A DNA stretch of 64,000 nucleotides, taken from Cupriavidus basilensis (GTDB lineage Bacteria; Pseudomonadota; Gammaproteobacteria; Burkholderiales; Burkholderiaceae). Below the pieces are notes generated by a model. The model searched no databases and was not told where the DNA came from. It saw only the letters and a program-made list of their open reading frames with translations. This document shows, piece after piece, positions 25,325 to 31,854 of this stretch. Made by a program: the position numbers and the translations under genes. The stretch covers positions 2,790,001 to 2,854,000 of the forward strand of contig NZ_CP062804.1 of the NCBI RefSeq assembly GCF_008801925.2. Reading direction: 5' to 3'. Position 1 is the first letter of the stretch; each line of letters begins with the position of its first letter.

Positions 25325-25663
25325 GTTCGAGGGGTCTCGTGTTCTTATCGTGTTCTTGTCGTGTTCTTGTCGTGTTCTTGTTGCGACTGGGCTCGTTGGA
25401 AACCGCGGGGCAATGCCATGTGCGATGCCCATGTTCGCCACTATGTCACACCTTGCTGACAGCCCTTGTCGGTAGTCGTCTGTCAGACAGAAAGCCAATT
25501 GTAAGCAGTTGTTTGGATCAGGGCACGGGCTCTGCGCGCGAGGAGTCAAACATGGGCGAAACGCAATACGCAAGTGGCACTTGGTGTCTCGCAGAGCGGC
25601 CATCGCGGCGTCCCCGCCATGGCGTCCAAGCGCCGTTTCCATCCATGAACCGTGAGGTCCGAT
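25325..25663. other. Divergent intergenic region, MATE and small exported protein
   Basis: A 339-nt region between the MATE gene (minus) and the lysine-rich exported protein (plus). Apart from the 11-bp tandem repeat, no confident promoter or gene is seen. The reverse frame remains open upstream of the MATE start, but its residues do not resemble a MATE N-terminus. Confidence 0.5.
25337..25380. repeat. 11-bp tandem repeat, four copies
   Basis: TCGTGTTCTT(A/G) repeats four times head to tail at 25337-25347, 25348-25358, 25359-25369 and 25370-25380. Three copies are identical and one differs by a single base. It lies 13 nt upstream of the MATE start codon, where copy-number change could alter promoter spacing or leader structure. 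Confidence 0.9.
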
Positions 25664-26014
25664 ATGACGAAGAACAAGCCGATTCGCTTTTTGCAAGCTT
25701 CCACCGCCCTGGCTGCCGGCCTGCTATGTGCGGCCGCCTTTGCCCAGACGCCCACCGTTCCTGCCGATAGCGGCAATGCCGCGGTGCCGGCCGGCATGAC
25801 ACAGATCGAGCCGCCGAAGGATCCGCTGGTCCAGCGCCGCGATGCCAACAAGCAGGCCTCGGACGAATACAAGGCCAAGAAGAAGGCCGCCAAGACAGAG
25901 TACAAGCAGGATGTGAAGTCCGCCAAGCAGCAAAAGAGCGCCGAGAAGAAGGCCAACAACGACACCATGAAGCAGGAGATGTCGGCCGCGCCCGCCGACG
26001 CGCAGAAGAACTAG
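25664..26014 (+). CDS. Small exported lysine-rich protein of unknown function
   Basis: A 116-residue protein. Residues 1-28 form a signal peptide (KNKPIRFLQASTALAAGLLCAAAFAQ, cleavage near AFA-QT). The mature chain has a Pro-rich start, then a highly charged Lys/Ala/Gln segment (YKAKKKAAKTEYKQDVKSAK and KSAEKKANND) that should be helical. Similar small Lys-rich periplasmic proteins are common in Cupriavidus and Ralstonia but have no assigned role. ATG 25664 has GTGAGG upstream. It stands alone and is followed by a strong terminator. Confidence 0.78.
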   Translation: MTKNKPIRFLQASTALAAGLLCAAAFAQTPTVPADSGNAAVPAGMTQIEPPKDPLVQRRDANKQASDEYKAKKKAAKTEYKQDVKSAKQQKSAEKKANNDTMKQEMSAAPADAQKN

Positions 26015-26077
26015 GCGCATACGCTCGCCCCCTGCGCCCGACGCATTGCCCATTGCCCCGTACGGGCAACCACACTG

Positions 26078-26113
26078 AAACGCCCCGCCTCCCCCAAGGA
26101 GGCGGGGCGTTTT
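26078..26113 (+). terminator. Intrinsic terminator after the lysine-rich exported protein gene
   Basis: Perfect 15-nt arms 26078-26092 and 26098-26112 (AAACGCCCCGCCTCC and its complement) around CCCAA, ending in TTTT. The A-run on the left makes it potentially bidirectional, but no minus-strand gene needs it. It isolates the three-gene cassette that begins at 26226. Confidence 0.93.
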
Positions 26114-26225
26114 AGCGTGGTGAACGCTTGAACCGCGACGCCGTTGGGCGAGCCATGGAGCGCATTTTCCGGGTCTGTGGCATCTCCGGGTAGAATCGCG
26201 CGTTAAGTGAAAATTAGATCACATT

Positions 26226-28583
26226 ATGGAAAGATCCGTGGATAGCAATGGCAACGCATTGACCGGTGTTCATCTGGAACAGTTACTGGATCGCCTCGAA
26301 GCCGATCTCGAGGAAGGCAATTCAAGCGAAGCCGCTGATTTGCTGGCCAGATTGCGCGCCAAGCCTTTGCGGGCCGATTCCCTTGAGTCCATCGACCGGC
26401 TGCATACGCTATGGATGCGCGCGGGGGATCCGGCGGCGGCGCTGGCGGTGGTCAACGCAGACGGCGCCGGCACGCTGGAAGCCACGCCGCGCGAAGCGCA
26501 GGCCGAGCTGCGCATGCACCTGGCGCTCTATCGCCTCCAGATAGCCAACCACGTCAACGAGGAAGAGAGCATCCAGCGTGCCCTCGCTGAGATGCGCGCC
26601 ATCGTGGCAGGGATGCCGGAGCTGAATGCGGACCGATATCGGCAGCTTCGCGTGTTCGATAGCCTGGAGCTGCGCAAGCTGGGCATTGCGCTGGAGACGA
26701 TTGACCTGCGCCATGCATTGAACGCGGCCATCGCGGAACGCGCGCCGTTCCGTGCATGGGACCTCGCCGACTATCATCGGCGGCGCGCCTGGGCGCTGTC
26801 GCGCCATGACAGCAACGACGAGGCCCGCGCAGCGGCTGGCGCGGCCATCCTGGCGCTGCAGACGGCTGACGCGGAACAGGACGTCGACGAAAACGACTGG
26901 CTGCGCCTGGGCAGCGCCCTGATCGGCATCGCGCCCGAGCGCCTTGCCGACTTCCAGCAGGCCACGAGGGCCCTGAGCGCGCAATGGTCCTTGCCGCAGC
27001 GCCGTGAGCTGGAAGTCCGGCTGTCCCGGCTCGCGGCGCGCGCCTTGTACGCGCAAGGCGATTTGCCCGGCGCGCTGAACGCCTGCTCCGCCGCGCGCCA
27101 TAGCCTGTCGTCGAACGGCAGCGATGACTTCATCGAATACGAGCTGCCGTGGCTGATGGAAGCCCAGCGCGCTGACGAGGCCGGCCGCCGGGCGTTCCTG
27201 CACATCTATCAGGTCGAGGACAAGATGTGGGACGGCGCCGCGCAGCTGGTTCACGCGCGGCTGGCCGATGCGGCCGACGACTCGGCCTGGTGGCCATTGT
27301 GCGCCATGCGGGCCTGCAACACGGAAGAGACGCTGGCGGCCTTCCTGTCAAAAGCGCAAGAGGGAGAACAGGATTTGCGGACCCTCTCCCCGACCCATGA
27401 AGCGCTCTTTGGCGCCGTGGGTGAGCAAGTGGATGCGCAGGCCCTGCAGGCGGTATTCGACGCAGCACGCGCGCTGGCCGAGCAGCGTTCGCCGGGCCAT
27501 CCATGGATCGCAAGACTGGCGGCGGTCAACGACGGCGCGGCGGGCCGCATCGATGCCACGACGCAAGCGGCGCGGCTGTATGCGGCGGCGCAGGAAGGCA
27601 GCATGCAGGACAACCGCACGGCCTATGCCCTGTTCGAGGCACGGGTGCAATCGCTTGGGGTGATCCAGACGCTGAAGCTGCCGGCCTTCTCGCTGCCAAG
27701 CGGGCTGTGGGCGTACAACTTCGGGGTCGCGCTTGGCGATTTGCTCGGGGAACACCTGGACCGCGTCCCCGCCGAGTCGCGCAATGAAACCTACAGCGAT
27801 TTCATCAAGCTGCAGATTGCCGCCTACGAACAAGGGCAGGCGTGCCTGGAGCGCTATTTCGAGAGCGGCGCCGGCCATCCGTACGATGCCTGCGCGCACC
27901 TCTACTCCATGCTGTGCAACAACCTGGCCATCATCTACCGGTACGACGAGCGGCGCTACGAGGATGCTGTCGAGCTGCACAGGCGCGGCATCGCCGCCAG
28001 CCCGTTTGCCGAACACTACGCCGGCCTGCTGAGCGTGCGGATCGCAATGCAGGATTCCGAGGGGATCATCAGCGCCGCCGAGCAGCTCTGGCACTACGCC
28101 GCCGAGTTTGGCTACAGCCGGCACGACCCCAACGACTACCTGAGCGAGGTGTCGCAGGCCCTGTACAAGCTCGATCGCGACCGCGAGATTCCCATCTGGG
28201 TGGAGCGCCTGGTGAAATGGGAGCGGGAAGAAGGCCAGGACGGCAGCAAGCTGTCGAGCAAGGACTTGGGCGTGCGCCTGCAAATGGCTTTCAACCTGGC
28301 GCATCACTGCCCGGAAGAAGCCGCGGCCCTGTGGAGCCGCATCGCGCGCCACGTCGATCATTGCTCGGAATCCTGGATGGTCAGCCTGGCGGCCGACACA
28401 CTCAGCGGGCTGCAGCGCCACGCCGAGGCCGCCGCGCTCTTCGAGCGTGCCATCGCACTCAATCCGCGCAGCAACGAAGACGAGCTCGCCGATGTCAAGG
28501 CGATGGAGGAAAAAGTGGCGCTCTACCGCGCGCAAGCCAACCCCGCCGGCAAGAGCAAAAGCTGGTGGCAAGTCTGGAAATGA
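26226..28583 (+). CDS. Large helical-repeat (TPR-like) protein of unknown function
   Basis: A 785-residue protein without signal peptide or membrane segment, almost wholly alpha-helical. Repeat-like helical pairs occur throughout, for example ALYAQGDLPGALNACSAARHSL and, near the C-terminus, GLQRHAEAAALFERAIALNPRS, which fit tetratricopeptide spacing. No catalytic motif was recognised. ATG 26226 follows an AT-rich leader with no strong Shine-Dalgarno. The stop overlaps the next gene by 4 nt (ATGA), and a third gene is coupled the same way. It is likely a scaffold for the PcfJ-like and DUF1266 proteins; that role is inferred from gene order only. Confidence 0.78.
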   Translation: MERSVDSNGNALTGVHLEQLLDRLEADLEEGNSSEAADLLARLRAKPLRADSLESIDRLHTLWMRAGDPAAALAVVNADGAGTLEATPREAQAELRMHLALYRLQIANHVNEEESIQRALAEMRAIVAGMPELNADRYRQLRVFDSLELRKLGIALETIDLRHALNAAIAERAPFRAWDLADYHRRRAWALSRHDSNDEARAAAGAAILALQTADAEQDVDENDWLRLGSALIGIAPERLADFQQATRALSAQWSLPQRRELEVRLSRLAARALYAQGDLPGALNACSAARHSLSSNGSDDFIEYELPWLMEAQRADEAGRRAFLHIYQVEDKMWDGAAQLVHARLADAADDSAWWPLCAMRACNTEETLAAFLSKAQEGEQDLRTLSPTHEALFGAVGEQVDAQALQAVFDAARALAEQRSPGHPWIARLAAVNDGAAGRIDATTQAARLYAAAQEGSMQDNRTAYALFEARVQSLGVIQTLKLPAFSLPSGLWAYNFGVALGDLLGEHLDRVPAESRNETYSDFIKLQIAAYEQGQACLERYFESGAGHPYDACAHLYSMLCNNLAIIYRYDERRYEDAVELHRRGIAASPFAEHYAGLLSVRIAMQDSEGIISAAEQLWHYAAEFGYSRHDPNDYLSEVSQALYKLDRDREIPIWVERLVKWEREEGQDGSKLSSKDLGVRLQMAFNLAHHCPEEAAALWSRIARHVDHCSESWMVSLAADTLSGLQRHAEAAALFERAIALNPRSNEDELADVKAMEEKVALYRAQANPAGKSKSWWQVWK

Positions 28584-29815
28584 GTACTGCCAGGCGGACA
28601 ACGGGGTACGCGCCGCGCAACGCCCTCAATGCCGGCGCCCTTAAGGCGGGCATCGCTGCGCGCAGCCAGGCGCGCGGCGACGATGCGGCGGTGCGCGCCT
28701 GGCTGCTCAACCACTTCTATCGGCATCTCGTCGCCAACTTCGAGCCGGCCGTCAAGATTGATTCGCTCGACGGTGCGCGACAGGCCCTGAGATCCGAGGC
28801 GATGCCGCAGTGGGTTGCGGCGCGCTTTGGCGCGCCGGCCAAGGCAAGCGGCGGTGAAACAGCAGCGCCACCGGCCCCGGTCGTCTGGGTGGATCCTGTC
28901 GAGCCGCGCCTGCTGGCGCTGGAAGCGCGGCTCGTCGAGTTCCTGACCTCGCGCAAGGGCACCGCTCTCGACGGCAAGCTCGACCGCATCACCTGCCCGC
29001 AGGCGCTGGCGCTGTGGGACAAGGAACACGCCGAGATGGCCACGCGCATCGAGCGCGGCTGGCGCCATAGCCAGCCCGAAGCGCTGCGCACCTTGCTGCC
29101 GACGCCGCATGGCGTGTTCGTGGAGTTGCTGCCCGACAGCGCGCTGCTGCGCGCGGAAATGGCCTTTGAAAGCTATGTCATGCGGCATTGCCTGGGGCAG
29201 TTTTCCGACCGGCGCGCGCTGTCCGGCGGCTACGGCGAGCGCTATGCCGAAGCGGTGGCGCAGCAGCGCCTGCGCCTGCTGAGTTTCCGCGATGCCAGCG
29301 GGCAACCGCATATCACCATCAGCGTGCATGTGCAGGCCAATGGCGCGCTCACCGTCGACCAGGTCAAGGGCAAGCAGAACAAGCCGCCCATCGCGCGCTA
29401 CGTGGAAGATGTGCTGGCCTGCCTGAACGCCCTGGGTACCGACGAGGAAACCCCCGACGATTGCATCGCCATCGGCGTGGTACGCACGCCAGCCGGCTGG
29501 GCGCGCATTGAAGACGTGGCCGACGCCACGACGCAGACCCGCTTGGTCGCCCGCTACCCACAGCTCTTTGTCAGGCTCAGCGCGCCGACGCCAATGGTGG
29601 AGTGGCTGGTCGCCGCGCGCCAGCCTGGCTTGCTGGCGCAGCGTTCGCCGATGGCGGCATCGGTCCGGTATGCCACTCGGCAAACGCCGGGCGCGGGTGA
29701 CGCCGAGGCGGTTGTCGCCACCGAAGGCGTGCCGTGGCCGGACATCTCGCTGTCGCGCGCGGCGCAAATCCAGGCTTCGCCCTCGCGAGGTGTCACGGAG
29801 CGCCAGATCGGATGA
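28580..29815 (+). CDS. PcfJ-like domain protein
   Basis: A 411-residue protein. The central part (about 195-275) carries the PcfJ-type pattern: MRHCLGQF with the His-Cys pair at 203-204, an LSFRD strand at 234-238, HITISV at 244-249 and QVKGKQNKPP at 261-270. The N-terminal half is helical with no recognised domain. PcfJ proteins were named from the enterococcal conjugative plasmid pCF10, but chromosomal members have no established function. No relaxase or conjugation gene lies nearby here. ATG 28580 overlaps the TPR-like gene by 4 nt, and the stop overlaps the DUF1266 gene by 4 nt. Confidence 0.75.
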   Translation: MSTARRTTGYAPRNALNAGALKAGIAARSQARGDDAAVRAWLLNHFYRHLVANFEPAVKIDSLDGARQALRSEAMPQWVAARFGAPAKASGGETAAPPAPVVWVDPVEPRLLALEARLVEFLTSRKGTALDGKLDRITCPQALALWDKEHAEMATRIERGWRHSQPEALRTLLPTPHGVFVELLPDSALLRAEMAFESYVMRHCLGQFSDRRALSGGYGERYAEAVAQQRLRLLSFRDASGQPHITISVHVQANGALTVDQVKGKQNKPPIARYVEDVLACLNALGTDEETPDDCIAIGVVRTPAGWARIEDVADATTQTRLVARYPQLFVRLSAPTPMVEWLVAARQPGLLAQRSPMAASVRYATRQTPGAGDAEAVVATEGVPWPDISLSRAAQIQASPSRGVTERQIG

Positions 29816-30477
29816 ATGGCATCAATGTCTTCTACCTGCTCCTCGGGGCCTTTGTGCTATGGCGGGTCTACCGCTTCCTGCGCCCCAAGCGTCCCGCTGT
29901 GTTCACGCCGCGCAAGCAATGGGCATTGACGTTGGCGCAGCCCATGGTCGATGCCACCAGCATGACGGGGTTTTTCGACCCCGCCTCGGACCACATGACC
30001 GACGCGACGCGCGCGTTGTTCCGCGTGCAGTTGCTGCATCAGATGGAGTTCCGCGCCAATGCCACGGATGACGAAGTGCGCCAGCACCTCGCCCAGGTGT
30101 TCGAATCCCGGTGGTTTCGCGCCGACCTGCATGCGCTGCTGCCGACCGACGATCCACGCGCCGCGCTGGCCTTCGCCTGCGTCCGGATGGCCTTTTTTGC
30201 ACGCACCGTCATGCTGATGGGCTGGGTCGAGCCGATGGCCGCCTGGCGCGTGCTCCTGCTCAACGCGCAGCGTGCGCAGGACTGCTTTGCCAGCTGGGAA
30301 GACTTCGGCCATGCCTTTATCGCCGGCCGCCAGCAATGGCTTGCCGCATTCCGCGCCGACCCGCTGGGCAAGGCCTTCGATGCAGCCAGCTTGCGCCAGC
30401 TGCTGGCGCCGCCCAAGGGCGCCTGGGCAGCGCTGGCATGGCCGGACCTGCCGGCGTTCAGCCCCGAGCCGCGCTGA
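29812..30477 (+). CDS. DUF1266 family protein with N-terminal membrane anchor
   Basis: A 221-residue protein. One membrane helix (about 5-22, FYLLLGAFVLWRVYRFL) precedes a cytoplasmic or periplasmic domain that ends with the DUF1266 pattern WRVLLLNAQRAQDCFASWEDFGHAFIAGRQQW: a W...A helix, then SWEDFG and a GRxxW. E. coli YbeR and YbeU belong to the same family and lie beside Sel1-repeat and J-domain genes, so pairing of DUF1266 with helical repeats recurs. ATG 29812 overlaps the PcfJ-like gene. It is convergent with the crotonase gene, only one base apart. Confidence 0.75.
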   Translation: MNGINVFYLLLGAFVLWRVYRFLRPKRPAVFTPRKQWALTLAQPMVDATSMTGFFDPASDHMTDATRALFRVQLLHQMEFRANATDDEVRQHLAQVFESRWFRADLHALLPTDDPRAALAFACVRMAFFARTVMLMGWVEPMAAWRVLLLNAQRAQDCFASWEDFGHAFIAGRQQWLAAFRADPLGKAFDAASLRQLLAPPKGAWAALAWPDLPAFSPEPR

Positions 30478-30478
30478 G

Positions 30479-31234
30479 TCAGCGCCTGGACGCCGCCCGG
30501 TAAGCGGCGATGCGCGCCTTGAGGCCCGGCCGGGCAGCGGAGCGCACCAGCTCGGCCAGCTGCGCCGCGCGCGCCGCTTCGGCCATGGCGTGGCCGCCCT
30601 GCGTGGCGGCCTGGATAGCGGCATGGGTTGGCGCATCCAGCCGGCGTGCACGCTGTGCCAGCGTGGCAAGCGCGGCGGCGCGCGCCTGCGGCGCCATCAA
30701 ATTGCCGGCCATGTCGCAGGCCAGCGCTTCCTCGGCCTGGACCGCCCGTCCGCTCGCGATCCAGTCCCGCGCCGTCGCCACGCCCACCAGCTGCGCCAGC
30801 CGCGCGCTGCCCAGCACCAGGCCGAAGGCCGCGCCGGGGAAAGCCAGCGTGCTGCCCGGCGCGATCCAATGCTGCTCGCAGGCCACCATCAGGTCGGCGC
30901 CCGCGCCCATGGCGCGGCCCTGGACCAGCGCTACGGTGGTAAAGGGCGCGCCATGCACGCTTTGCAGCAGCAGTTCGACGCGCACGAAACGCGCCAGCAG
31001 CGAATCGTCGCTCTCGCCATCCAGCTCACCCAGGTCGAACCCCGTGCAGAAATGCGCGCCGGCGCCGTCAATGGCGAGCAGGCGGGTGCCATCGTGGTAG
31101 CACGCCAGCACCGCCGCCGCGAGTGCCTCCACCAGCCCGGCCGACAGCGCATTGCCGCGCTCGGGCCGGTTCAGCGTCAATCGGGTGACGTCGCCTTGCT
31201 TGTCAATCAGCAGACCGGCTTGTTCCACGTTCAC
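30479..31234 (-). CDS. Crotonase-superfamily (enoyl-CoA hydratase/isomerase-like) protein
   Basis: A 251-residue crotonase fold: TLNRPERGNALSAGLVEAL, the oxyanion-hole segment FCTGFDLGEL and VQGRAMGAGADLMVACEQHWIA. The two glutamates that catalyse hydration in mammalian enoyl-CoA hydratase are not seen: the first site reads GADL and the second reads FPGAAFGLVLG. It may catalyse another crotonase reaction such as isomerisation, hydrolysis or decarboxylation. The start is GTG at 31234 overlapping the dioxygenase stop (GTGA); a second GTG at 31228 is possible. It is the last gene of the CoA-transferase/dioxygenase operon. Confidence 0.82.
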   Translation of the reverse strand: MNVEQAGLLIDKQGDVTRLTLNRPERGNALSAGLVEALAAAVLACYHDGTRLLAIDGAGAHFCTGFDLGELDGESDDSLLARFVRVELLLQSVHGAPFTTVALVQGRAMGAGADLMVACEQHWIAPGSTLAFPGAAFGLVLGSARLAQLVGVATARDWIASGRAVQAEEALACDMAGNLMAPQARAAALATLAQRARRLDAPTHAAIQAATQGGHAMAEAARAAQLAELVRSAARPGLKARIAAYRAASRR

Positions 31235-31854
31235 CCCTGCGCCGGTGGTGCCACTGGCGCCCACAGGTTGGGCACCAGCGCGTTGGAGTAGCCGGATACA
31301 AACGGCTTGGTGGCGCCGCTGGCGGCGTCATACACGTGACGCTGTATGCGGCCGATATTGCCGCCATAGAGATGCACGCTGATCGACACCCGGTCGTCAT
31401 GCGCATTGCGCACGCGGTGCACATCGCCCAGCGTGGGCGAGACCGCGGCCACCTGGCCCGCGCTCAGCACCACGCCATCGCCGTCTTCCACCAGCCGGCC
31501 GCCTTCCACGCGGTAGTGCTGGTCCACCTCGGCGCCGCGCAGCATGCCGATCAGGCCCCACACCGTGTGGTCGTGCACGGGCGTTTGCTGGCCCGGCCCC
31601 CAGACAAAGCTGACCAGCGAAAAACGATCGAGCGGATCGCCATAGAGCAAATGCTGCTGGTAGTAGACGGGATGCGGGCGCGCCATGGCCTCAGGCAGCC
31701 AGTCGTCGTGCGCCACCAGTTCGCTCAGCGCGGCGCTGGCTTGCGCGAGGATGTCCGCCTCGCTGCTGCCCGCAAGTTCCGCCTGCGTGACCACGCGGCT
31801 GATGGTGGCAACGAACGCGCGCAGCCGATCGATGTTGCCGGTCTTGTCGCTCAT
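31231..31854 (-). CDS. Cysteine dioxygenase-family cupin, Gln-type (candidate 3-mercaptopropionate dioxygenase)
   Basis: A 207-residue cupin of the cysteine dioxygenase family. Iron ligands are His94 and His96 (VHDH) and His146 (GDVHRV); the Ser-His-Tyr relay is Ser159, His161, Tyr163 (ISVHLYGG). At the place where true cysteine dioxygenases have the carboxylate-binding Arg (YTRN), this protein has Gln (YYQQHLLY, 66-67), the mark of Gln-type enzymes, several of which oxidise 3-mercaptopropionate to 3-sulfinopropionate. ATG 31854 has AGAGGA upstream. It lies between a family III CoA-transferase and a crotonase, which fits sulfinate activation as a CoA ester. Substrate is inferred. Confidence 0.85.
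   Translation of the reverse strand: MSDKTGNIDRLRAFVATISRVVTQAELAGSSEADILAQASAALSELVAHDDWLPEAMARPHPVYYQQHLLYGDPLDRFSLVSFVWGPGQQTPVHDHTVWGLIGMLRGAEVDQHYRVEGGRLVEDGDGVVLSAGQVAAVSPTLGDVHRVRNAHDDRVSISVHLYGGNIGRIQRHVYDAASGATKPFVSGYSNALVPNLWAPVAPPAQG

Follow-up and report, generated by a model that had tools for sequence, protein, structure and literature searches.

Do three adjacent genes of Cupriavidus basilensis form a single system, and if so, what might that system do? The genes lie within a 64,000-nucleotide stretch of contig NZ_CP062804.1 (positions 2,790,001 to 2,854,000), here called the window, and all are read from the forward strand. The first (26226 to 28583) encodes a tetratricopeptide repeat (TPR)-like helical-repeat protein of 785 amino acids, probably a scaffold. 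The second (28580 to 29815) encodes a PcfJ-like protein of 411 amino acids with a helical N-terminal part and a GNAT-like domain, probably a transferase subunit, and the third (29812 to 30477) encodes a DUF1266 protein of 221 amino acids with a short hydrophobic N terminus and a match to PF06889. The original prediction recognized this three-gene cassette but missed both a variant that carries a DUF4034 protein and the GNAT-like fold. We conclude that the three genes are almost certainly a real, conserved module, and one that seems to be undescribed in the literature searched. Its function is a more tentative matter. The reading we prefer, at somewhat less than even probability, is a single accessory operon encoding a single complex, in which the PcfJ-like transferase would modify proteins in the manner of NatA.

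Evidence for the module comes from matched presence and absence across 200 Burkholderiaceae genomes. A profile of the PcfJ-like protein matches 15 of these genomes, and a subfamily profile of the DUF1266 protein matches the identical 15, with the two genes adjoining on one contig in 14 and split over contigs in the other (G137). The general Pfam DUF1266 model recovers 14 genomes, all within the 15 and missing G143, and finds a second copy in the source genome alone. Identical sets of 15 in 200 would arise by chance with a probability of 7e-23, a figure that is too strong because the genomes share kinship. Of the 15 cassette genomes, 10 match the TPR profile strongly (E 4e-283 or below) and exactly the other 5 match DUF4034 strongly (E 1.9e-39 or below); none of them has both. 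Elsewhere, 23 genomes match the TPR profile weakly and in part (E 9e-6 to 2e-55) and two match DUF4034 weakly; all of these lack a PcfJ-like gene.

Gene order is constant as well. We compared 80 loci, many from close relatives, drawn by PcfJ motifs from the 113 found in a scan of species genomes. In 76 of them, a TPR gene precedes the PcfJ-like gene on the same strand at a distance of no more than 1.5 kb; three of the exceptions fall at contig ends (L005, L036 and L078) and the fourth is of the DUF4034 type (L081). Had the three genes failed to recur together across genomes, the original prediction would have been refuted; they clearly do recur together. DUF1266 is a separate gene in 74 loci and fused in 5, and one locus (L006) ends at a contig edge; among the 120 homologues listed, 7 are PcfJ-DUF1266 fusions. 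The predicted 4-nucleotide overlaps are present at both joints as ATGA (28580 to 28583 and 29812 to 29815). Overlap is common among relatives, not universal: the last four bases are ATGA-like in 43 of 76 TPR genes and 51 of 74 PcfJ-like genes, counted with the relatives' start codons unchecked. All three genes are shown to be under purifying selection, as the ratio of nonsynonymous to synonymous substitution rates (dN/dS) is below 1 for each in every comparison (n = 6), with dS approaching or exceeding 1 in the three most distant. The ratios are 0.28 to 0.38 for the TPR gene, 0.19 to 0.24 for the PcfJ-like gene and 0.12 to 0.30 for the DUF1266 gene, except that the TPR gene reaches 0.70 against the shorter copy in L042. 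That copy (L042:8106-10004) is the TPR gene of C. basilensis OR16, a frame of 632 amino acids. Together, matched presence and absence, fixed order, fusions and partner replacement strongly support the proposal that the genes are one functional unit, and a physical complex of the three proteins is plausible.

The helical partner appears to be exchangeable. In the window protein the best Pfam unit, TPR_7, scores just below its cutoff (27.0 against 27.9); many homologues carry TPR families, and the protein's profile hits TPRs in the PDB, both designed and natural. A related cassette stands by yegQ in Salmonella and E. coli, where its genes are annotated by domain name or as hypothetical. Its PcfJ-like and DUF1266 proteins are homologous to those of the window and likewise adjacent, whereas the third protein is DUF4034 and comes last, an order (PcfJ, DUF1266, DUF4034) also found in some Burkholderia. 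Homology between the TPR and DUF4034 proteins was rejected, since profile comparison detected no relation (hhalign probability 1.4 percent). Both nevertheless give weak helical-repeat matches (TPR, Sel1), so two unrelated helical proteins seem to serve the same PcfJ-DUF1266 pair. No mention of DUF4034 was found in the literature searched.

Several observations on these helical genes stand apart. Massilia rubra has extra TPR-like genes near its cassette, one upstream and two downstream (L053:5488-16655), perhaps spare scaffolds. In the source genome, a frame of about 650 amino acids resembles positions 400 to 614 of the TPR profile (G000:C1:4329617-4330225) and is matched in 22 sampled genomes of the genus. 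A Desulfovibrionaceae metagenome-assembled genome (MAG) carries a TPR gene with a PcfJ-DUF1266 fusion (L038), and a Treponemataceae MAG encodes a protein (P0182) that shares 45 percent identity with the TPR protein; either may reflect transfer or misbinning. One DUF4034-type cassette is probably decayed, with its PcfJ-like match in two adjoining out-of-frame pieces and one stop in DUF4034 (L136, G143:C5:10000-26000). Another locus holds a TPR gene remnant in three pieces, in a genome without a PcfJ or DUF1266 match (L137, G132:C27:138000-152000).

What the module does depends largely on the PcfJ-like protein. We call it PcfJ-like because it scores 16.8 bits against PF14284, below the gathering cutoff of 25, and a search of its own genome with PF14284 at E 0.001 gave no match. 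An E. coli-type relative (L084) reaches 26.2 bits, and seven listed homologues also carry PF14284. The subthreshold match covers the region of the His-Cys and Q-x-K-G-K-x-N residues; the family motif we take to be the HC-G and Q-x-x-G-x-x-N residues. The predicted conservation of His-Cys and QVKGKQN was borne out for the Q-x-K-G-K-x-N form, whose residues, like those of His-Cys, show no variation across 48 aligned sequences: the window protein and 47 relatives, of which L089 and L091 are distant proteins encoded on viral contigs. In the structure model, His203-Cys204 (29186 to 29191, forward strand) directly follows helix alpha1, and Q261-V-K-G-K-Q-N267 (29360 to 29380, forward strand) spans the end of beta4 and the loop before alpha3.

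Residues 150 to 352 (29027 to 29635, forward strand) were modelled with a predicted local distance difference test score (pLDDT) of 91.8 and a predicted TM-score (pTM) of 0.85. The fold search suggested in the original prediction was run on this model, and acyltransferases make up most of the Foldseek and VIA-align rows; nothing can be concluded from folds that the VIA lists lack. Against viral models, PcfJ-like phage proteins rank first in Foldseek (E 2.2e-10). The core is predicted, in a high-confidence model, to adopt a GNAT-like acyltransferase fold, and the subunit is predicted to be a transferase. A papain-like or NlpC-type protease, an idea raised by the His-Cys motif, was dropped once the model gave a GNAT topology. 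Malonyl-CoA decarboxylase and leucyl/phenylalanyl-tRNA-protein transferase are in the fold lists and did not stand out. In GNATs, motif A (Q/R-x-x-G-x-G/A) lies between beta4 and alpha3, and the model places Q261 to N267 where these enzymes hold the coenzyme A (CoA) loop. Twelve invariant residues, among them His203, Cys204, Arg237, Thr246, Gln261, Lys263, Gly264, Lys265 and Asn267, surround the likely cleft. The fold matches stay at Z below 8 with low TM-scores, and the motif, though rightly placed, has Gln for its last G/A. By motif, the protein is not classed among the GNATs; we infer that it works like one. In the literature searched for PcfJ with acetyltransferase and GNAT, PcfJ is a table entry.

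The name PcfJ itself suggests conjugation, a role we rejected. Relatives of the window protein, whose nearest named homologue is from C. basilensis (96 percent identity), were found in none of 50,697 phage records (E 1e-5) and in 8 of 72,556 plasmid records, and a pCF10-like plasmid whose pcfJ carries a transposon is described as retaining transfer (PMC10269796). The window protein resembles the plasmid and phage proteins of PF14284 in its subthreshold match across the motif region and in its fold matches to phage PcfJ-like proteins. It differs from them in scoring below the Pfam cutoff, in lying on a contig of at least 2.85 Mb and in having fixed partners, namely DUF1266 with a TPR or DUF4034 protein.

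Eukaryotic NatA pairs the GNAT catalytic subunit Naa10 with the TPR scaffold Naa15. The cassette is similar in that a large TPR-like helical protein is encoded together with a predicted GNAT-like protein; it differs in being bacterial, in its additional DUF1266 subunit and in lacking the canonical CoA motif, and the two are likened by their predicted design. By this analogy, the TPR or DUF4034 superhelix would hold the transferase and recruit protein substrates, DUF1266 would place the assembly at the inner membrane, and target proteins would receive either an acyl group donated by acyl-CoA or an amino acid donated by aminoacyl-tRNA. The full version, a horizontally spread machine in which an exchangeable scaffold, a GNAT-like transferase and a membrane DUF1266 protein acylate or aminoacylate selected proteins, is possible yet decidedly more doubtful than an even chance. 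If true, NatA would have a counterpart of similar design in bacteria, and the wider PcfJ family, known from plasmids and phages, would gain a biochemical identity for the first time.

The DUF1266 protein bears on the membrane part of this mechanism. It scores 56.8 bits against PF06889 (cutoff 27), over profile positions 83 to 175 only. Its predicted membrane anchor holds in part: among 95 DUF1266 homologues with 200 or more amino acids, 65 have a hydrophobic window near the N terminus, but in the window copy this one is weaker and the most hydrophobic is internal, at residue 118. Six of the seven PcfJ-DUF1266 fusions have a hydrophobic window between the domains, which, if it forms a hairpin, would leave both domains cytoplasmic. 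The second DUF1266 gene of the source genome (G000:C1:1139649-1140170) has no PcfJ-like partner and lies about 1.1 kb from a RelA/SpoT-type gene.

Comparison with the E. coli ybe/hscC cluster raises another explanation. There, in line with the original prediction, the DUF1266 genes ybeR and ybeU adjoin Sel1 helical-repeat genes, and each overlaps its neighbour (ybeR-djlB and ybeU-djlC); the partners, however, are J-proteins instead of PcfJ, and the Hsp70 HscC is present. One source suggests that HscC acts with tail-anchored DjlB/DjlC at the plasma membrane (PMC8215388), an analogy that hints at work on membrane proteins. The cassette might accordingly be a membrane-side quality-control or adaptor module, in which DUF1266 and the repeats bind clients and the PcfJ-like protein is a binding partner with lost or changed chemistry, comparable to the J-proteins that accompany DUF1266 in E. 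coli. We consider this unlikely, as the twelve invariant residues cluster in the modelled fold like an active site, and searches of the 80 loci with DjlB, DjlC and HscC gave no hit at E 1e-3, in a weak test of low sensitivity: with YbeU as the control, DUF1266 was picked up in just 5 loci. No Hsp70 or J-domain partner is among the Pfam matches of the three proteins.

The preferred reading, a protein-modifying complex, also takes the operon to be accessory, and its distribution agrees. Counting its own genome, the cassette occurs in 15 of 200 genomes of the family, 5 of 60 of the genus and 2 of 369 sampled from the class. In the related genome G212, both flanks match, about 134 bases replace the segment from 25962 to 30487 (no strand; ends approximate), and the PcfJ-like protein has no match anywhere; G214, a closer genome than G212, keeps the whole cassette. 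This patchy presence and the clean empty site in G212 would also suit an anti-phage or interbacterial defence system carried as an accessory module, as would the few PADLOC families in the flanks. We surveyed those flanks by selecting 160 proteins from 20 loci and scanning 124 from 16, with four loci left out because of redundancy or size; clustering of recurrent flanks, based on mechanically chosen open reading frames, some on the wrong strand, served for orientation only. At E 1e-10, 17 PADLOC families each matched a single flanking protein, most strongly RtcR-type regulators and a type II methyltransferase (4.5e-101). The 25 Pfam families listed, of 170, are mainly housekeeping. The three cassette proteins themselves match no PADLOC-DB family up to E 1, and phage records hold no relative of the PcfJ-like protein. 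Association with defence islands is therefore not convincing, and the defence role once proposed is improbable.

In E. coli, 297 of 5,426 genomes have a gene that shares 95 percent identity or more with an E. coli-type PcfJ-like query. In E. coli Nissle 1917 the DUF4034 cassette lies near baeR, flanked by yegQ and yegP, at a site where K-12 has nothing, and Salmonella carries its version between baeR and yegQ. This placement could point to an envelope-stress or metal/drug-tolerance module linked to BaeSR, in keeping with an earlier guess at envelope stress. The proximity is real, but it is a matter of position only: the orientation toward baeR differs between Salmonella and Nissle, and the window cassette has no such neighbours, leaving a BaeSR link with little probability. 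For nucleic-acid handling, also once proposed, no evidence was found. The opposite orientations (L148 in Nissle, L097 in Salmonella) look as if insertions favoured this site. Judging by the locus tags of its neighbours, STM2133 is presumably a member of the Salmonella cassette. One paper tabulates STM2133 among hypermotile Salmonella mutants.

PcfJ-like proteins, DUF1266 and DUF4034 are named families without known function, and joining them in one module turns several unknowns into a single testable question. With the DUF4034 version in Nissle 1917 and none at that site in K-12, the question can be approached in a convenient host.

The strong terminator predicted upstream of the cassette is supported in part: a terminator-like hairpin at 26075 to 26115 (forward strand) is stable (-37.4 kcal/mol; z -7.1 against 200 shuffles), but its U-run is short and a simple terminator scan missed it. 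Because the same scan found no sigma-70-like promoter in 25500 to 31500, the basis for co-transcription is the overlaps and the conserved order. The three flanking open reading frames scanned with Pfam in this 8.94-Mb genome encode a TctA transporter, an enoyl-CoA hydratase and a protein of 120 amino acids without a match.
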